A stretch of DNA of 64,000 nucleotides from Corynebacterium hansenii. GTDB lineage: Bacteria > Actinomycetota > Actinomycetes > Mycobacteriales > Mycobacteriaceae. This document shows positions 8,177 to 21,919 of this stretch, piece after piece. The stretch covers positions 186,001 to 250,000 of the forward strand of contig NZ_CP047211.1 in NCBI RefSeq assembly GCF_030408795.1. Reading direction: 5' to 3'. The position numbers and the translations under genes were made by a program. The notes beneath the pieces were generated by a model. It saw nothing but the letters and a program-made list of their open reading frames with translations, searched no databases and had not been told where the DNA came from. Each line of letters starts with the position of its first letter. Within the stretch, counting starts at the first letter, position 1.

Positions 8177-8246
8177 TTCCCCGCGCACTGAATTCCAGCG
8201 CCCGACGCCCGGCCGGCGCCGCACCACCACGAAAGAAGTGATTCCG

Positions 8247-10571
8247 ATGTCCACGCCCACGGATGTCCAGGGACGCGAACTGGATCTGGACATCACCGGC
8301 ATGACCTGCGCCTCGTGCGCCAACCGGATCGAGCGCAAGCTCAACAAGCTCGACGGCGTGACGGCCGCGGTCAACTACGCCACCGAACGGGCACACGTCA
8401 CCGTGCCCGCCGATTACGACCCCCAGCAGCTCCTCGACACCGTCGACGCCGCCGGGTATTCGGCCACGCTCCCGCCGCCTCCGCGCGCCGCGGCGGATGA
8501 GGGAGCCGGGGCGGATGAGGCGTCGTCAAGCGACGGAACCGAAACCGCCGCCGACCGTGAGCTGGAGGCCCTGCGCAACCGGGTGATCGGCTCGGTCGCG
8601 CTGGCCGTGCCGGTGATCCTGATCTCGATGTTCCCGGTGCTGCAATTCACCAATTGGCAGTGGCTGGCGCTGACGCTCACCGCGCCCGTGGTGGTGTGGG
8701 CCGGCTGGCCGTTCCACCGGGCGACGTGGAAGAACCTGCGCCACGGCGAGGCGACGATGGACACGCTGATCACCGTCGGCACGGGGTCCGCGTTCCTGTG
8801 GTCGCTGTACGCGCTGTTTTTGGGCACGGCGGGGACGCCGGGGCTCAAGCACGAGTTCACGCTGTCGGTCGCGCCGACCGACGGGGCGGCGAACGTGTAC
8901 CTCGAGGTCGCTGCGGGCGTGATCATGTTCGTGCTGGCCGGGCGGTACTTCGAGAAGCGTTCCAAGCGCCGCGCCGGCGACGCACTGCGGGCGATGCTCG
9001 ACTTGGGCGCCAAGGACGTCCGGGTGCTTGACGACGGCCGCGAACAGCTGGTTCCGGCGTCGTCCCTGAAGGTGGGCGACCGGTTCGTGGTGCGGCCGGG
9101 CGAGAAGATCGCCACCGACGGCCGCGTGGTGGACGGCACGTCCGCCGTGGACGAGTCGATGCTCACCGGCGAATCCGCGCCGGTCGAGGTCGCGGCGGGC
9201 GACGACGTCACGGGTGCGACGGTCAACGCTTCGGGCCGCCTGGTCGTGGAAGCCACGCGCGTCGGCGCCGACACCCAGCTGGCGCAGATGGCGAAGATGG
9301 TCGAGGAAGCGCAGTCCGGCAAGGCCGAGGTGCAGCGCCTGGCGGACCGGATCTCCGGCGTGTTCGTGCCGGTGGTCATCGCGATCGCCGTGGCCACGTT
9401 GGGTGCATGGCTGGGCGCGGGATTCCCGGCGTCGGCGGCGTTCACCGCGGCGGTGGCGGTGCTGATCATCGCGTGCCCGTGCGCCCTGGGCCTGGCGACG
9501 CCGACGGCGCTGCTCGTGGGCACCGGACGTGGCGCGCAGATGGGCGTGCTGCTCAAGGGGCCCGTGGTGCTGGAGTCGACCCGCCGCGTGGACACCGTGG
9601 TGCTGGACAAGACCGGCACCGTCACCAGCGGCGACATGGCGCTGGCGGAGGCGTGGCCCGGCGAGGGCGTCGACCGCGCCGAGCTGCTGCGCCTGGCCGG
9701 GGCCGTCGAATCGGCGTCGGAGCATCCCATCGCGCGTGCCATCGCCGACGGTGCGCGGGCCGAACTGGAGGGGGCGGGGGCGCCGCTGCCTCCCGTCGAG
9801 GGTTTCGAGAACCTTCCGGGCCAGGGCGTTCGCGCCCGCGTCGACGGGGTGGAAGTGACCGTCGGGCGCGGCGTGGGTGAGCTGTCGGAGGATCTGGCGC
9901 GGCGTTTCGATGCCGCCGTCGCCGCCGGCCGCACCGCCGTGACCGTCGCCTGGGATGGTCGGGCACGCGGTGTGCTTGTGGTGTCCGACCGGGTGAAGCC
10001 GACGTCGGCGGCCGCGATCGCCGAACTGCGGGGCCTCGGCCTGGAGCCGGTGCTGCTGACGGGCGACAATGCGGTCGTCGCCCGCCATGTCGCGGAGGAA
10101 GTCGGCATCGATGACGTCCGTGCCGAGGTGATGCCCGCCGACAAGGTCGACGTGGTCAAGTCGCTGCAGGCGGAGGGCCGCGTCGTCGCGATGGTCGGCG
10201 ACGGGGTCAACGACGCCGCCGCCCTGGCGCAGGCCGATCTGGGCCTGGCCATGGGCACCGGCACCGATGCCGCGATCCAGGCGTCGGACGTGACGCTCGT
10301 GCGCGGTGACCTGATGGCCGCCGTCGACGCCGTGCGGTTGGCGCGGCGGACGCTGGGCACCATCAAGGGCAACTTGTTCTGGGCGTTCGCCTACAACGTG
10401 GCGGCCATTCCGCTGGCCGCGCTGGGACTGCTCAACCCGATGCTGGCGGGCGCCGCGATGGCGTTTTCGTCGGTGTTCGTGGTGTCCAACAGCCTACGGC
10501 TCAGGGGCTTCCGCAGCAGGGCCGTCAACGACGGGACCAACGACGGGGCGGGCGCCGGGGAGGTGGCGTAG
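8247..10571 (+). CDS. copA: P1B-type copper-exporting ATPase CopA
   Basis: Pumps Cu(I) out of the cytosol at the cost of ATP. The 774-aa protein has one N-terminal metal-binding domain (GMTCASC, residues 18-24), about eight membrane helices, the actuator motif TGES, the intramembrane CPC site ([11 protein letters not shown]), the phosphorylation motif DKTGT, the SEHPIA nucleotide motif, and [10 protein letters not shown]. That set, including the HP locus, marks the P1B-1 copper class. ATG 8247 is chosen over GTG 8238 because GAAAGAAG lies 8 nt before it. An exact GTCGTCAAGC copy (8522) falls in the Ser-rich linker after the metal domain. csoR follows with no gap. Confidence 0.95.
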
Positions 10572-15403: not shown

Positions 15404-16267
15404 GTGGATCTTCCCGAGACTTCTTTTTGGGCGCGCCGCCTCTTCCCGGGGGCGGCGCGCATCGCCGTGCGCCGGGCCGTGTTGCCGGGGCGGCGCCGCA
15501 GGAAGGCGCGGCCGGGCATCCCGGTCAAGGTCGCCGAGTTTTCGCTTTACGACGTCCCGATCGACGACGACGCAGTTCCCGACGTGGTCGATGCCGGGGA
15601 AGCGCGATTCGCCGTCGCCGCCGATGTGGGCGGGGATTGGCGTGATGACGGGCCCGATGGCGGGCGCGACGGCGGACACGGCGGCACCGCGGATGATGCG
15701 CCGCGCCGCGAGATCGCGGCGATGACGGTGAACTTCGGCCGCGTCGATCTGAACCTGCGCACGCCGGGCGGCGATGACGTCCGCGTCGAAATGTTCCTGG
15801 TCGCGTACCCGGATTCCCTGGCGACCCGCTACGGCGGCGACGGGGATGATTCCGGCATCGCCCGCGCCGTCGCGGGTGCGGCGGCGCTGGTCGCGGATGA
15901 TCAGGAAGCTGCCCGGCCGACGCCGGGTTCGGTGATCCCGGAGGCCGTGCGCATCGGCATGGGCGCCGACTTCGACGCGTCGCGGTCGACGACGCCGCAC
16001 CTGTTGTGCGTCGCCCCGTACGTGTGGCCGGACGGCGTGCCCACCATCACCGAGGAGCCGGGCAAGATTTCCGTCCACGGGGACGCGGACGGTTTCCCCG
16101 ACCGCGTCACCGGTCGTTCGCGGTTGACCACGGTCACGCAGCTCGTCCCGATCACCGAGGAAGAGTACGCGCACGCCGACGCCCACGGGGTCGAGTCGCT
16201 GATGCAGTTGCTGGCCGACGTCGACGCCGATCTGAGGGACCTGCGGCGCGCTTCCGTGGCGCGGTGA
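15404..16267 (+). CDS. suppressor-of-fused (SUFU)-like domain protein
   Basis: 287-aa cytosolic protein. After a basic N-terminus (residues 1-45) there is an acidic, Gly/Asp-rich insert (about 80-105), then alternating strands. The end, TTVTQLVPITEEEYAHADAHGVESLM, resembles the C-terminal part of bacterial SUFU-domain proteins (PF05076), in which an L-x-P-I-T-x-x-E segment precedes a helix. The function of bacterial SUFU proteins is largely unknown; several sit in toxin-immunity contexts, but nothing here suggests a toxin. The start is GTG 15404, 10 nt after the aminotransferase stop, without a clear ribosome-binding site, so the N-terminus is uncertain. Confidence 0.5.
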   Translation: MDLPETSFWARRLFPGAARIAVRRAVLPGRRRRKARPGIPVKVAEFSLYDVPIDDDAVPDVVDAGEARFAVAADVGGDWRDDGPDGGRDGGHGGTADDAPRREIAAMTVNFGRVDLNLRTPGGDDVRVEMFLVAYPDSLATRYGGDGDDSGIARAVAGAAALVADDQEAARPTPGSVIPEAVRIGMGADFDASRSTTPHLLCVAPYVWPDGVPTITEEPGKISVHGDADGFPDRVTGRSRLTTVTQLVPITEEEYAHADAHGVESLMQLLADVDADLRDLRRASVAR

Positions 16268-16279
16268 CGCGGGGCTTCC

Positions 16280-16285
16280 TAAGAT
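16280..16285 (+). promoter_or_regulatory. -10 box of the TIGR04222/MNIO operon
   Basis: TAAGAT, 7 nt before an ATG at 16293 that opens an eight-codon ORF coupled to the membrane-protein gene. The start would be leaderless. Confidence 0.55.
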
Positions 16286-16292
16286 CACCGCC

Positions 16293-16316
16293 ATGATTGG
16301 ACGACCGCCGCGATGA
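16293..16316 (+). CDS. leaderless eight-codon upstream ORF
   Basis: ATG 16293 encodes MIGRPPR and stops at TGA 16314-16316. That TGA overlaps the ATG of the next gene (ATGA at 16313-16316). The -10 box TAAGAT would start the mRNA at about this ATG, so ribosomes loading leaderless here would be handed to the membrane-protein start, which has no ribosome-binding site of its own. The peptide is probably only a loading device. Confidence 0.5.
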   Translation: MIGRPPR

Positions 16317-17326
16317 CGAGTTTCGAGTATTTCCTGTTTTATTCGCGTCCCCTGTGGGGCATCGACGGGCCGACCTGGCTGGTGCTCATGGGTGCCGCCT
16401 TCGTGGTGGGCATCGCGGTGTGGCTGGTGGCCGACATCGTGGAGAAGTCCCGCGCGCGCCGGGCGGTGCGCGAGGCGTCGTCGACCCACGTCGGTTGGGC
16501 GCAGCAGACCGCCGCGACGATGGCCCCCGCGTACGCCGCGTACCTGTGCGGCGGCCGTCGCCGCGTCACCGATCTCGCCTTCGCCGAGCTGGCCCTGTCC
16601 GGGGCGGTGCCGCAGATGCAGTACTCCCGGCGGCGGATCATGCTGGCGCCGGAGGTCAAGCAGGGCGCGGGCCAATGGGCGCCGGGCGTTGCCGGGCCGT
16701 CCCAGGGTTTGAGCCCGGTGGCCGTGGCGATGCTCGAGTCGGCGCGCCGTTCGGGGAAGCTGAAGAAGCGTTCCGGTCGCGCGGCGGCCCGCGAGGTCGC
16801 CGCCGTGCGCGCCGAACTCGTCCGGGGCGGACTGGTGAAGCCCGCGCGATTCCGGCCGCACACCGTGATCGCGCTCATCGCCTTCGCGGTGTTCGTGCTG
16901 GTCAACGTCGTGCGCGCGTATATCGCGGCGAGCAACTACCGGCCGGTGAGTTTCATGGTGTTCCTGCTCATCGTCATGATTGCCACGGTGGCCCTCGTGG
17001 CCGCTTCGCGCACCGCCCCGGAGGTCACCGACGTGGAGCTCACCGACCGCGGCCGCCAGGTGCGGGCGGCGCTGGAGAACGAGGTGTCCCGCCTGGGCGA
17101 CACGGTGGCCATGCTGCCGAGCCGGGGCCAGGGGCTCATGATCGTCGCAGTCGGTGGACTGGCCGCGGCGGCGATCGTCCCGCAGGTGCTGGTGCAGTCG
17201 TATTCGTCGATGATGTGGTCGTCGCCGTTCACCGGCGGTGACTCGTCATCGTCGATGTCGGGCTGCGGCGGCTCGTCCTGCGGCAGCGGGTGCGGCGGTG
17301 GCGGCTGCGGCGGGTGCGGCTCCTGA
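16313..17326 (+). CDS. TIGR04222-like membrane protein with Cys-rich C-terminal tail
   Basis: 337-aa membrane protein. Predicted spans lie near residues 22-43, 184-204, 211-231 and 273-294; residues 45-180 form a soluble domain with LCGGRRRVTDLAFAELALSG, the region typical of TIGR04222 proteins of actinobacteria. The tail after residue 308 is Ser/Gly-rich and ends in a run with cysteines at 318, 323, 327, 332 and 335, spaced by Gly and Ser. The stop overlaps the start of the DUF692/MNIO gene (TGATG), and that gene overlaps the next, so all three are made together. Inference: the Cys-rich tail may be modified by the MNIO enzyme, making this a membrane-anchored precursor. The start is fixed by the ATGA overlap with a short upstream ORF. 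Confidence 0.75.
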   Translation: MTSFEYFLFYSRPLWGIDGPTWLVLMGAAFVVGIAVWLVADIVEKSRARRAVREASSTHVGWAQQTAATMAPAYAAYLCGGRRRVTDLAFAELALSGAVPQMQYSRRRIMLAPEVKQGAGQWAPGVAGPSQGLSPVAVAMLESARRSGKLKKRSGRAAAREVAAVRAELVRGGLVKPARFRPHTVIALIAFAVFVLVNVVRAYIAASNYRPVSFMVFLLIVMIATVALVAASRTAPEVTDVELTDRGRQVRAALENEVSRLGDTVAMLPSRGQGLMIVAVGGLAAAAIVPQVLVQSYSSMMWSSPFTGGDSSSSMSGCGGSSCGSGCGGGGCGGCGS

Positions 17327-18297
17327 TGGGGCGTCCGATGGCCCGCGCCGCCCGGGAGTTGTCGGGCCCGACCATCGCGTGGCGCCCGGGCACGGCCGCC
17401 GCGGTGGCGGCCGCGGCCCCCGCCTGGACGGAGGTCGTCGCGGACTCGCTGATCCATGGGGAGCAGTGCGGGACCCACGGCGCGCAAGGCTCCGCCGCGG
17501 AGGGGGCAGGCCGAGCGCGAGGCGGCACCGACCATGAGGGGAAAGGACGACCGCCCGGCGTCGTCGTCCCGCCCGCGCTGGCCGAGCTGATCGACCGCGG
17601 CACGGCGGTGGTGCCGCATGGCCTGCGCCTGTCGTTGGCCTCGGCGGATCCGCGCGACGTGGGCGATCCTTCGGTCCTCGCCCGGACGGCGGAGGCCCTC
17701 GGGTCGCCGTTGGCCAGCGAGCACATCGCCTTCACCAGGGCCGGCGGGATGGACGTGGGCCATCTGGTCGCGCCGCCGCAGACGAGGGAGCAGGTCGCGG
17801 TCATCGCGCGCAATTACCGCGCCGTCGCCGACCGCATTCCGGTGCCCGTGGCGCTGGAGCACGTCTCGGCGATGGTCGACTGGCCGGAGTCGGAGATGGC
17901 GGAGGGCGATTTCGCCGCGGAGGTGTGCGCCGCCACGGGTGCGGGGCTGGTCCTCGACGTGGCCAACGTCTACGCCAACGCGCTCAACCGTGGCCTGGAC
18001 CCGGCCGCCGAGCTGGCACGGTTTCCCGTGGAACCGATCGTCTACGTTCACGTGGCGGGCGGGCACATGCGCGAGGGGCGCTACGTCGATTCGCACGTCG
18101 ATCCGGTGCCGCCGCAGGTGCTGGAGCTGCTGTCCCAGCTGGCGGACCGGTGCCGCTCGGCGGGCCGCGCCGCGCCGCCGACGCTGATCGAGCGCGATGG
18201 CGCGTACCCGTCGCGGGACGTCATGCTCGCCGAGCTCGCGGCGGTCGGGGCCGCGCTTGACGACGCCCACGTTCCCTCCGAAGGAGCCCACGGGTGA
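17326..18297 (+). CDS. DUF692 / MNIO (multinuclear non-haem iron-dependent oxidase) family enzyme
   Basis: 323-aa TIM-barrel protein of the MbnB/BufB family. Ligand-type residues seen in order: His98 (PHGLRLSLAS), Glu132-His133 (SEHIAF), Glu178 (ALEHVS), Asp211 and Asn214 (LDVANVYANA), His242 (VHVAGGH), Asp255 and His257 (DSHVD), Glu289 (LIERD). This matches the two- or three-iron site of characterised members, which oxidise cysteine in ribosomal peptides to oxazolone/thioamide, 5-thiooxazole or related groups. A Gly/Arg-rich insert (residues 45-78) lies early in the barrel. ATG 17326 overlaps the preceding stop by one base. The next gene encodes a small protein in the place of the usual MNIO partner. 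A modifying role on the neighbouring Cys-rich tail is inference. Confidence 0.88.
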   Translation: MGRPMARAARELSGPTIAWRPGTAAAVAAAAPAWTEVVADSLIHGEQCGTHGAQGSAAEGAGRARGGTDHEGKGRPPGVVVPPALAELIDRGTAVVPHGLRLSLASADPRDVGDPSVLARTAEALGSPLASEHIAFTRAGGMDVGHLVAPPQTREQVAVIARNYRAVADRIPVPVALEHVSAMVDWPESEMAEGDFAAEVCAATGAGLVLDVANVYANALNRGLDPAAELARFPVEPIVYVHVAGGHMREGRYVDSHVDPVPPQVLELLSQLADRCRSAGRAAPPTLIERDGAYPSRDVMLAELAAVGAALDDAHVPSEGAHG

Positions 18298-18872
18298 CGT
18301 CCGGCGGGCACGATCGGCTGGCAGCGAGGCAGGCGGCGGTGGCGAGGGCGTTGGCGTCGTCAAGCGAAGAAGCCGCGGGCGAGGCGCTCGACGGTGACCC
18401 GGGGCCCGCGCTGGATGCGGGGCAGGTGGCGTGGTCGAGGACGCAGCTGCGGATCAAGCACGCGGGGGCGATCGCGCGGCGGGCGCCGATGCTGGCCGAG
18501 GCGGTGGCGGCGACCGGGCGCTCGTGGGCGGCGGAGTACGTGGCGTGGGTGGAGGCCCGCGCGGGCGAAAATGGCGGGGGAGCGGCCGGCGGGGACGCTG
18601 CGGCCGATGGAGTAGGAGCCCGCGCGGGCGCAAACGGCGGGGGAGCGGCCGGCGGCGACGCGGACCTCGCGGAAGCGGCGGAGCTTTCCGCGCACCTGTG
18701 CGGGCGGATGAGGGTGCCCGCGGCGGTCGTCGACGAGATGCTGGTGCTGCGCGATCTGGTGGCGGGGCCGTCGCGCGTGCGGGTGCTGCGGGGGTGCGGG
18801 CGGTGGATGATCCGCGTGGGCGGTCGGCGGCGATTCGGCGGCCGGGGATGTTCGAACGCGGCGGGTCGGTGA
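18294..18872 (+). CDS. small partner protein of the MNIO operon (SCO6045-like)
   Basis: 192-aa, Ala/Gly/Arg-rich protein. GTG 18294 overlaps the MNIO stop (GTGA), so the two are coupled. The N-terminal helix pair (RLAARQAAVARAL) followed by QVAWSRTQLRIKHAGAIARRAP and a WAAEYVAW segment resembles the short partner found after DUF692 genes in streptomycetes (SCO6045-like C-terminal domain), which may take the place of the BufC/MbnC partner that binds the precursor. The middle holds two imperfect copies of an ARAGxNGGGAAGGDA segment (around residues 88-124), a repeat-made linker. An exact GTCGTCAAGC lies at 18356. dnaX starts 26 nt downstream. Confidence 0.6.
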   Translation: MTSGGHDRLAARQAAVARALASSSEEAAGEALDGDPGPALDAGQVAWSRTQLRIKHAGAIARRAPMLAEAVAATGRSWAAEYVAWVEARAGENGGGAAGGDAAADGVGARAGANGGGAAGGDADLAEAAELSAHLCGRMRVPAAVVDEMLVLRDLVAGPSRVRVLRGCGRWMIRVGGRRRFGGRGCSNAAGR

Positions 18873-18898: not shown

Positions 18899-21800
18899 GT
18901 GGCTCTGTACAGGAAGTATCGTCCGGCGACGTTTGCCGAGGTCGTGGGGCAGCGGCATGTGACCGACCCCCTTTCCGCGGCCCTGGAATCGCGTGGCGCG
19001 GACGGGGCCCCGGACCGTATCAACCACGCCTACCTGTTCTCCGGGCCGCGCGGTTGCGGCAAGACGTCGTCGGCGCGGATCCTGGCGCGCAGCCTCAACT
19101 GCGTGGAGGGGCCGACGGCGACGCCGTGCGGGAAGTGCGCGTCGTGCGTGGCGCTGGGGCCGGGCGGCCCGGGCAACCTGGACGTGGTGGAGCTGGATGC
19201 GGCGTCGCACAACAGCGTCGACGACATGCGCGATCTGCGGGACAAGGCGATGTACGCGCCGGCGGAGTCGCGGTACCGCATCTTCATCATCGATGAGGCG
19301 CACATGGTCACCAGCCAGGGCTTCAATGCCCTGCTGAAGATCGTGGAGGAGCCGCCGGAGCACCTGATCTTCATTTTCGCCACCACCGAGCCGGAGAAGG
19401 TGCTGACCACCATCCGGTCGCGCACGCACCATTATCCGTTCCGGCTGTTGCCGCCGAATCTGATGCGGGGGCTGCTCGAGCGCATCGTCGGCGAGGAGGG
19501 CGTCGCCGTCGCCGATGACGTGTACCCGCTGGTCGTGCGGGCCGGCGGCGGGTCGCCGCGTGATTCGCTGTCGGTGATGGACCAGCTGTTGGCGGGTGCG
19601 GGGCCGGAGGGCGTGTCGTATGAGCTTGCGGCGGGTTTGCTGGGCGTCACGGATCAGACGTTGCTTGACGACGCCTTGTCCGCTCTGGCCGCGGGGGATC
19701 GCGCCGGGTTGTTCGGCGTGGTGGATCGCGTGGTGCGGTCCGGGCAGGATCCGAAGCGGTTCGCCGAGGATCTGCTGGGGCGCGTCCGCGATCTGCTGGT
19801 GATCGCCGCCGTGCCGAATGCGATGGAAGAGGGACTGGTCGATGCCCCCGAGGATCGCGTCGAGGCGATGCGCGAGCAGGCGACGTCGGTGCCCACGGGG
19901 ACGTTGACGAGGTTCGCCGATGTGCTACAGCGGGGTTTGCCGGACATGTCCGGGGCGACGTCGCCGCGGTTGCTGCTCGAGGTGCTGTGCGCGCGGATGC
20001 TGCTGCCGGCTTCGGAGCAGTCGGTGGAGTCGTTGATCCAGCGCATTGAGGCGCTGGAGCGTGGCGGTGTTGCCGGTGGTGGTCAGCAGGGGCAGCAGGC
20101 CCAGCCGCATCAAAGCCAGCAGCAGAGCCAGCCGCAGCAGGCGGCGCCTGCCGGTGGCCCGGGGGCGATGGGCGGGCCGGGCGGTCCCGGCGATGACCCC
20201 AACCTTTCGCCGTTGCAGCGGGCGCGTTTGGCGAGGCAGGCGCAGAATCCGCAGGCGGCGCCGCCCACGCCGCCGCAGCAAACCGCGCAGCCGGTTCAGC
20301 CCACGCCGGCTCAGCAGCGGCCGGAGCCCGCTCAGTCCGAGCCGCAGCAGTCGGCTGCACAGCCGGAACCGGAGCAACCGACCGCGCAGTCTCAGCCGAC
20401 GCAGCCCACTCAGCCGCAGGTGCCCGCGCAGCAGCAGAATACCGCCGCGCCCGAGGTTCCCGACCAGGAGGAGCAGGCCCGCAAGGCCCGCGAGATGCGT
20501 GAAATCTCGCGGCGCATGCAGGAGCAGGCCCGCGAACAGGAGCGGGCGGAACGCGAGCGCATGGCCAAGGAGCGCGAGGCCGCCGCCCGCGCCGCCGAAG
20601 GCGATGCCGGTTCCGTGGCGCCGCAGCAGGAGGAGTCCGCTCCGGCGCAGCCGGCGGTACGGGCGGACGAGGGGGCGGCGGGGACGTCGTCAAGCGATCA
20701 CTTGCAGGCGCTGCGCGAAGCATGGCCGCAGGTCGTGGAGTACGCGGGCGAGGGCAACATCCCCGTGCGCGTGATGGCGGCGCAGGCGGTGCCGGTCGCG
20801 CTCGACGAGGGCGTGCTGACCATCGGCCACCACACCGGGGCGCTCGCCAATCGCCTCAACGATCCCGGGAACGCCGCCGCGCTCGGTGCCGCCGTGCGGC
20901 GGGTGCAGGGCATTGAGGTGGAGGTGCGCTGTGTCGTCGGCACGGCGCCGCGCGGTGGCGGGGACCGTTCGGGTGCCCGGCCGCGTCAGCACCAGGCGCC
21001 CGCCGGCGAGAGTTCGGAGGGTGCAAAACCTGCGGGGCTGGCCAATGATCGACCTGACTCAACCGTTGGAGATGTCAACGAAGGGCATTCACCTGCGGGA
21101 ATGAGCGGCGGGCACTCCGTTCCGGACGGTAGTGCGCCGGTTTCGGGCTCTGCGCCGGCTGCGGAGTCGGCCCCTGGGGCTGCTGCTGCGCCGGCGCCGG
21201 AGTCTGCTCCCAAAGCCGATGAGGGCCGCCCGGTGCCCGCGTACCGACGAATCCTCGAGCAGCGTCGCCGTGCCCAAGAGGCCGCGCGCCGCAACGCCGA
21301 AACCGGCAGCGGGCCGTCCGGATTGACCGATGCCCGCAACGCCGCAGGCGCTGCGCCGACGCGGGATCAAGCCGGCGATGGCGGGAAGAAGAAGTACGTT
21401 CCGCCGCCGCCCGCGGCCGGGACGCAAGGCGTGACCAAGCGTCGTCACGACGACATCCCGCTTCCTCCCGAGCCGTACGACGACGTCCCCCCGCCTCCCG
21501 ACCCCGACTACGGCGGCTACCCCGACGACGGCGGTTACGCTCCGCCGCCGGACTTCGGTGCTGGTCAGGGCGGTGGCCAAGGCGGTGCTCAATCTGCCGG
21601 ACAGCCCGGTGGGCAACCGGCCGGGCAGTACGGCGGACAGCCTGGCGCGCAGCCCGGGGGTCAGTACGGAGGCCAAGGCGTTGGAGCCCCCGCCGGTCCA
21701 TCTGGCAGCGCTCCGACGGCGCAGACACCGGGGCAACCTCCGGCTTCGGCTCCGGCTCCGGCACCCACCGGGGACCCCGGCGTCGCCGACGACGGCCTCG

Positions 21801-21919
21801 ACGACGAGGAGCGCGAACTCCTCGACGCCGCCCGCACCCCGGGCCAGCTGGACCACCGCGACCAAAAGGAAGTCGTGATGGAACTGCTGGCCAAGGAACT
21901 CGGCGCCAAACCTCTGTAA
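18899..21919 (+). CDS. dnaX: DNA polymerase III subunits gamma/tau
   Basis: Clamp-loader ATPase that links the replicative polymerases and loads the beta clamp. Of 1006 aa, residues 1-370 are the conserved AAA+ part: Walker A GPRGCGKTS (49-57), zinc cysteines 68, 77, 80 and 83, Walker B IIDEAHM, the SRC-like TTIRSRTHHYPF sensor region. Residues about 385-600 are a Gln/Pro linker and a charged Glu/Arg coiled stretch, then a folded domain (about 600-680, HLQALREAWPQVVEYAG), then more than 200 residues of Pro/Gly/Gln repeats (GQ-rich, GGQxGGQ), ending DEERELLDAARTP...LLAKELGAKPL. The linkers make it much longer than E. coli tau (643 aa). GTG start with leaderless promoter. Confidence 0.95.
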   Translation: MALYRKYRPATFAEVVGQRHVTDPLSAALESRGADGAPDRINHAYLFSGPRGCGKTSSARILARSLNCVEGPTATPCGKCASCVALGPGGPGNLDVVELDAASHNSVDDMRDLRDKAMYAPAESRYRIFIIDEAHMVTSQGFNALLKIVEEPPEHLIFIFATTEPEKVLTTIRSRTHHYPFRLLPPNLMRGLLERIVGEEGVAVADDVYPLVVRAGGGSPRDSLSVMDQLLAGAGPEGVSYELAAGLLGVTDQTLLDDALSALAAGDRAGLFGVVDRVVRSGQDPKRFAEDLLGRVRDLLVIAAVPNAMEEGLVDAPEDRVEAMREQATSVPTGTLTRFADVLQRGLPDMSGATSPRLLLEVLCARMLLPASEQSVESLIQRIEALERGGVAGGGQQGQQAQPHQSQQQSQPQQAAPAGGPGAMGGPGGPGDDPNLSPLQRARLARQAQNPQAAPPTPPQQTAQPVQPTPAQQRPEPAQSEPQQSAAQPEPEQPTAQSQPTQPTQPQVPAQQQNTAAPEVPDQEEQARKAREMREISRRMQEQAREQERAERERMAKEREAAARAAEGDAGSVAPQQEESAPAQPAVRADEGAAGTSSSDHLQALREAWPQVVEYAGEGNIPVRVMAAQAVPVALDEGVLTIGHHTGALANRLNDPGNAAALGAAVRRVQGIEVEVRCVVGTAPRGGGDRSGARPRQHQAPAGESSEGAKPAGLANDRPDSTVGDVNEGHSPAGMSGGHSVPDGSAPVSGSAPAAESAPGAAAAPAPESAPKADEGRPVPAYRRILEQRRRAQEAARRNAETGSGPSGLTDARNAAGAAPTRDQAGDGGKKKYVPPPPAAGTQGVTKRRHDDIPLPPEPYDDVPPPPDPDYGGYPDDGGYAPPPDFGAGQGGGQGGAQSAGQPGGQPAGQYGGQPGAQPGGQYGGQGVGAPAGPSGSAPTAQTPGQPPASAPAPAPTGDPGVADDGLDDEERELLDAARTPGQLDHRDQKEVVMELLAKELGAKPL

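Follow-up and report, generated by a model that had tools for sequence, protein, structure and literature searches.

A 64,000-nucleotide stretch of the Corynebacterium hansenii genome (contig NZ_CP047211.1, positions 186,001 to 250,000; this whole stretch is called the window below) carries three overlapping plus-strand open reading frames (ORFs) at positions 16313-18872. They encode a TIGR04222 membrane protein with a cysteine-rich C-terminal tail, an MNIO (DUF692/PF05114) enzyme, and a small partner protein. From sequence comparisons, I propose that the MNIO and the partner probably oxidise the Cys-Gly steps of this membrane-anchored tail. The original prediction, made from the letters of the window, had presented the trio as a candidate new peptide-modifying system. 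The novelty does not survive, since the same proposal was already made by Antoine et al. (2025, PMC12452194). There, of over 1,000 Cys proteins that lack a signal and are encoded ahead of MNIO genes, 40% are reported to be TIGR04222 proteins; subsets of the TIGR04222 proteins are proposed to serve as substrates of MNIOs, and PME-type 2 partners are assigned to them. The trio is a divergent Corynebacterium representative of this published MNIO/TIGR04222 group, and it is a real and conserved system. A literature search over titles and abstract openings found no experiment on an MNIO-associated TIGR04222 protein.

As listed in Table 1, the three genes are tightly packed. The junction of the TIGR04222 gene and the MNIO gene is TGATG, with a 1-base overlap, and that of the MNIO gene and the partner gene is GTGA, with a 4-base overlap, so that the overlapping stops and starts first described for the trio are borne out by the ORF coordinates. 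The MNIO ORF would encode 335 residues if it were started at an upstream GTG. The arrangement goes beyond chance, since relatives show the same gene order and the same kind of tail. The first protein scores 62.2 bits with the TIGR04222 model of NCBIfam (cut-off 43) and has four hydrophobic segments at about residues 21-43, 184-206, 212-232, and 273-293, in agreement with its earlier description as a TIGR04222-like membrane protein. Its cysteines lie at positions 79, 318, 323, 327, 332, and 335; the last five, which the original prediction had placed exactly, fall within the last 20 residues and each is directly followed by Gly.

Do such tails follow the MNIO genes? I surveyed an order-wide sample of 249 genomes (E <= 0.001), of which 86 have an MNIO and 107 have a TIGR04222 protein. 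In total, 153 TIGR04222 places were entered, 150 from the order and three TIGR04222-like loci from genomes of the same genus; after dropping one whose frame was not open (G296) and one that runs off the contig end (G262, a genome with an MNIO), 151 proteins from 97 genomes were compared. Eleven of the 107 TIGR04222 genomes gave weak matches and were left unread, and none of these has an MNIO; in the same genus, 17 genomes matched TIGR04222, 13 of them with weaker matches that were left unread. A tail was counted as a Cys tail when at least two Cys lie in the last 45 residues, and an MNIO was counted as near when its gene lies on the same strand at a distance of up to 6 kb. Cys tails were found in 98 of the 107 proteins with an MNIO near, in 9 of the 28 whose genome has an MNIO elsewhere, and in 2 of the 16 from MNIO-less genomes. 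Counted per genome, the numbers are 79 of 81 versus 2 of 16 for the MNIO-less genomes. The MNIO-less genomes span seven genus codes, and tails with at least two Cys occur in one of the seven. In genus g20, the second TIGR04222 copies, which lie far from the MNIO gene, lack tail Cys (11 of 11). Likewise, three TIGR04222-like proteins from MNIO-less genomes of the window's own genus (G139, G088, and G092) have no tail Cys. Seen from the enzyme side, a Cys-tailed TIGR04222 protein is encoded at 72 of 80 named MNIO loci; in five of the remaining eight, the contig ends no more than 160 bp upstream of the match, while two (L227 and L241) have TIGR04222 in an odd frame and one (L228) has no match. 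The co-variation on which the original prediction was to be judged is thus favoured by the raw counts, while it does not reach significance after correction for the tree, as described below.

The tails also have a regular grammar. In the 98 MNIO-adjacent tails with at least two Cys, 361 of 447 tail Cys are directly followed by Gly, versus 222 +- 9 expected when the non-Cys letters are shuffled within each tail. The spacing of the Cys has a mode of 6 and a coefficient of variation of 0.35, versus 0.74 +- 0.03 under random placement. CGG forms the terminal residues in 74 of the 98 tails, and the C-terminal G-C-G is invariant in an alignment of 39 proteins. Three orthologues with 56-67% identity, including those of C. 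freneyi and Corynebacterium sp. NPDC060344, have four tail Cys each and all end with CGGCGS; P0013 (220 residues) was excluded from this comparison because it diverges upstream of the tail. Such a pattern would be expected of an array of modified motifs rather than of a loose composition. The earlier suggestion of the Cys tail as the probable substrate of the MNIO gains support both from this grammar and from the raw counts.

How may such a tail have arisen? Among distant TIGR04222 proteins from MNIO-less genomes (open frames of 548-838 residues), 18 of 18 lack Cys within the last 45 residues and have Gly-rich ends. This set derives from 26 places read out of 56 in a phylum-wide sample, 20 of them in MNIO-less genomes; L277 (no stop reached) and L296 (internal stop) were dropped. 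Many of the Gly-rich tails in this set (L279-L295 and L297) end with GGGGSW. It looks as if Cys-Gly steps had been added to a Gly/Ser tail where an MNIO is present, giving the Cys tail.

The second protein clearly belongs to the MNIO family, with 194.1 bits for PF05114 against a cut-off of 25. The metal-site residues H98, H133, E178, D211, N214, H242, D255, H257, and E289 are all present. Eight of these nine are conserved in all 80 relatives compared; H98 is conserved in 79, and a gap takes its place in one. All except N214 had been named in the original prediction as metal-ligand-type residues, and each stands where it was placed. It is reported for HvfB that activity is lost on changing N175, D242, or H244 (PMC13419390); via an alignment with 3BWW, these residues map to N214, D255, and H257 of the window MNIO. 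The product of HvfB was followed at 302 nm (PMC13419390). The named subfamilies BufB and HvfB were considered for the enzyme and rejected, since its scores are far below the equivalog cut-offs (138.1 of 310 bits for NF050167 and 119.2 of 360 bits for NF003818). In the enzyme, about 30 residues of low complexity form an insert (window 17464-17553; residues 59-88 of the 335-residue reading), which is unmatched in the MNIO of the genome G704, 87% identical over the matched remainder.

The third gene product is, by profile and predicted fold, a divergent PME-type 2 partner, as its earlier description as a small partner implied. Profile comparison to the PME-type 2 partner gave a 95% match. The hidden Markov model (HMM) score is 14.4 bits, marking a very divergent member, and the structure model is closest to TglI. 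A DUF2063/TglI-like helical domain with a whole or cut RRE-type domain is predicted in it. The Pfam scan gave no family at E <= 1 and no DUF2063 match, and the gene lies directly after the MNIO gene, as expected of a PME-type 2 partner. A sequence search with the partner alone returned five proteins, all at least 59% identical, and therefore the profile and fold comparisons were needed. A partner is encoded directly 3′ of the MNIO gene in 75 of the 80 named loci; 35 of these ORFs built the profile and 40 are independent of it. Among the five loci that lack it, L252 stops 120 bp past the MNIO gene and four are from Tsukamurella. Some partners are shortened to 60-67 residues, keeping the first part only, and still follow the MNIO gene (L194, L209, L214, L218, L238, L245, L247, L248, L253, L256, and L263). 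Among close relatives of the window partner, a Gly/Ala-rich duplicated stretch (window 18567-18674) varies in length, and the partners are 192, 176, 171, 164, and 162 residues long.

The tail ends a membrane protein with four hydrophobic segments. The idea of a substrate fixed within an integral membrane protein, rather than a free peptide, is supported. Loop 1 of the protein has 25 Lys and Arg versus 8 Asp and Glu. By the positive-inside rule, this charge pattern favours a topology in which the large loops are inside and the tail alone is outside. Antoine et al. likewise describe the TIGR04222 tails as probably outside (PMC12452194). The fourth segment is weakly hydrophobic across the family, with a median Kyte-Doolittle (KD) value of 1.56 and values of at least 1.6 in 17 of 39 proteins, while the other three segments reach this value in 36-39 of the 39; the window protein's own fourth segment is more hydrophobic (KD 2.24). 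A weak fourth segment would leave room for modification of the tail in the cytosol before a late insertion.

On this basis, the following course may be proposed. The MNIO, a predicted iron enzyme, and the predicted PME-type 2 partner would act on the Cys-Gly steps of the tail, which the partner would present to the MNIO in the cytosol. The last, weakly hydrophobic segment would insert afterwards and carry the tail outside. The likely product would be a membrane-tethered row of Cys-derived heterocycles of the 5-thiooxazole or oxazolone/thioamide type, which might act as a ligand for copper or another soft metal. What is formed is less certain than the oxidation of the tail, since the 5-thiooxazole is taken from systems with PME-type 1 partners, namely the copper peptides of the captophorins and bufferins (PMC13097082), whereas the partner here is of type 2. 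Metal binding by the modified tail is plausible. More tentatively, and somewhat short of an even chance, the protein may be a ribosomally synthesised and post-translationally modified peptide (RiPP) that is never released: its Cys-Gly heterocycles would be formed in the cytosol, the last segment would insert late, and the evenly spaced metal-binding array would face outside as a tethered metallophore.

Several observations weigh against oxidation of the tail or parts of the course proposed for it. Nine MNIO-adjacent TIGR04222 proteins have fewer than two tail Cys, and two MNIO-less genomes, both of one genus, each have a protein with two tail Cys. In four Streptomyces-like genomes, a Cys-free TIGR04222 protein is encoded within 3 kb of the MNIO gene. 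The tail is predicted outside, while the MNIO and the partner are assumed to be cytosolic, which leaves the timing of the modification unexplained, and the metal-ATPase neighbour of the trio is not kept even within the species of the window. Moreover, a tree built from the 151 domains leaves one supported independent contrast for an MNIO near and two for an MNIO in the genome. When all branches are used, supported or not, the contrasts are 10 and 4, respectively. Over 200 random pairings, the supported contrasts concordant with the tail average 0.6 (near) and 1.7 (in the genome), and the opposite direction appeared in 3 of 200 pairings for an MNIO near and in 0 of 200 for an MNIO in the genome. 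The phylum-wide sample added few independent contrasts. Since there are too few contrasts for significance, the association could partly be due to descent. A single ancestral operon might have been inherited, with the Cys tail as a lineage trait that the MNIO does not functionally require, and the one or two supported pairs fit this. Yet Cys tails occur in only one of the seven MNIO-less genus codes, and the second copy of g20 lacks tail Cys throughout when far from the MNIO gene, so that I regard shared descent as the main explanation as quite improbable.

It could also be that the tail Cys stay as thiols, for metal binding or disulfides, that the MNIO modifies another, unannotated peptide, and that the TIGR04222 protein has an accessory role in the membrane. 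The Cys-free TIGR04222 proteins at the Streptomyces-like loci would suit this idea, as would two further Streptomyces-like MNIO loci without a TIGR04222 match (G420 and G585) and the Cys tails of the 9 of 28 proteins encoded away from the MNIO gene. However, the tail Cys track the MNIO across the order, the Cys-Gly spacing is highly regular, and the overlapping genes of the window leave no intergenic room for another precursor. This explanation is unlikely, although less so than shared descent. As a separate observation, at most of the four Streptomyces-like loci with a Cys-free protein (L298-L301, in genomes G521, G553, G574, and G636) and at L302, a recurring short stretch, found by eye, lies upstream of the MNIO gene and reads TSNVALK in one frame and PQMLL or PQMFL in another. 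A different chemistry is conceivable too: the MNIO might act on the tail by a non-Cys or release reaction such as backbone cleavage and free a Cys-rich peptide. The characterised MNIO chemistry is varied and includes carbon excision and C-N cleavage in the systems covered in PMC13097082, and the invariant terminal G-C-G could mark a processed end. On the other hand, no protease or exporter is found among the Pfam-named neighbours in the window, and the conservation tracks the Cys rather than a cleavage site; a reaction of this kind is therefore very unlikely. Oxidation of the Cys-Gly steps of the anchored tail remains the probable reading.

Were the tail the substrate, MNIOs would act not only on small peptides but also on a part of a protein that stays anchored for good, and the cells would possess an intrinsic metal ligand or sensor fixed to the membrane. 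With the co-variation, the Cys-Gly grammar, and the small size of the Corynebacterium trio, the published hypothesis can now easily be put to a direct test.

Table 1. Features of the trio and its surroundings (positions in the window).
Feature	Position	Strand	Remarks
TIGR04222 membrane protein gene	16313..17326	+	337 aa; NCBIfam TIGR04222 match; putative modification substrate
C-terminal Cys tail of the TIGR04222 protein	17264..17323	+	residues 318-337; five Cys, Gly after each
MNIO (DUF692/PF05114) gene	17326..18297	+	323 aa from the ATG overlapping the preceding stop; PF05114 194 bits
Divergent PME-type 2 partner gene	18294..18872	+	192 aa; predicted helical domain and three strands
dnaX, downstream neighbour outside the system	18899..21919	+	PF13177/PF12169
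SUFU-domain protein gene, upstream neighbour, not assigned to the system	15404..16267	+	PF05076 33.2 bits
P-type ATPase with HMA domain (heavy-metal type)	8238-10571		lies 5.7 kb before the TIGR04222 gene

Within the genus, the MNIO is found in 4 of 242 genomes. In three of them (G000, G714, and G704), the trio lies between a SUFU-domain gene and dnaX; as in the window, dnaX comes directly after the partner in both G704 and G714. Among the 80 named MNIO loci, a SUFU-domain gene is near the MNIO gene in L189 alone. The fourth genome, G010, has a distant MNIO (about 40% identical; L173:7885-8895, minus strand) without a TIGR04222 match, and the MNIO gene is followed by a partner-like ORF of 87 residues (L173 7572-7835, minus strand; HMM E 7.9e-4). 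The original prediction had also pointed to a copper operon about 6 kb away. A P-type ATPase with an HMA domain is indeed encoded upstream of the trio, and it is also upstream in G704; it is absent from the 12 kb upstream in G714, a genome of the same species as the window. The hint of copper is therefore unsupported, and the neighbour was rejected as evidence for a copper link. None of the 80 named MNIO loci showed the ATPase, a weak test because the flanks reach at most 6 kb and the window ATPase ends 6.7 kb from the MNIO gene.

Several known proteins and systems resemble the trio to different degrees. One likeness is to DUF2207 proteins. In L285:571-2400, residues 311-496 match TIGR04222 and residues 308-539 match DUF2207_C (PF20990), and the C-terminus is Gly/Ser-rich; this protein differs from the window protein in having no tail Cys and a large extra N-terminal domain, and its genome has no MNIO. 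The distant TIGR04222 matches in the phylum look like DUF2207 proteins, judging from this one, which was checked. TglHI modifies a carrier peptide, and none was seen at the window locus. The window MNIO matches the TglHI of Pseudomonas syringae (8hi7, 8hci) with E 3.1e-13, and the window partner model is closest to TglI.

The captophorins and bufferins share with the trio an MNIO with a partner and repeated Cys-Gly, in the form of EGKCG there and CGG or CGS here (PMC13097082). In contrast, their precursors are described as peptides, most of which have Sec signal peptides (PMC12452194), while the putative substrate here belongs to an integral membrane protein, as its C-terminal end. Their partner is of PME-type 1 (DUF2063), while the window partner has no DUF2063 match and is assigned to PME-type 2.

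The trio may also be compared with the group of Antoine et al. The main text of that paper (PMC12452194) has no mention of "Corynebacteri-", while the window system is from Corynebacterium. Large periplasmic domains are described for the group, whereas the large loops of the window protein are predicted inside and its tail outside. The PME-type 2 example B of the paper is a 158-residue protein of Micromonospora matsumotoense, and the ORF after the MNIO gene in L191, from the same species, also has 158 residues. The window protein has what defines the group, a Gly/Ser tail with Cys, encoded directly before an MNIO gene. The same three families, the order of TIGR04222 before MNIO, and the Gly/Ser Cys tail are shared between the published group and the Corynebacterium trio.

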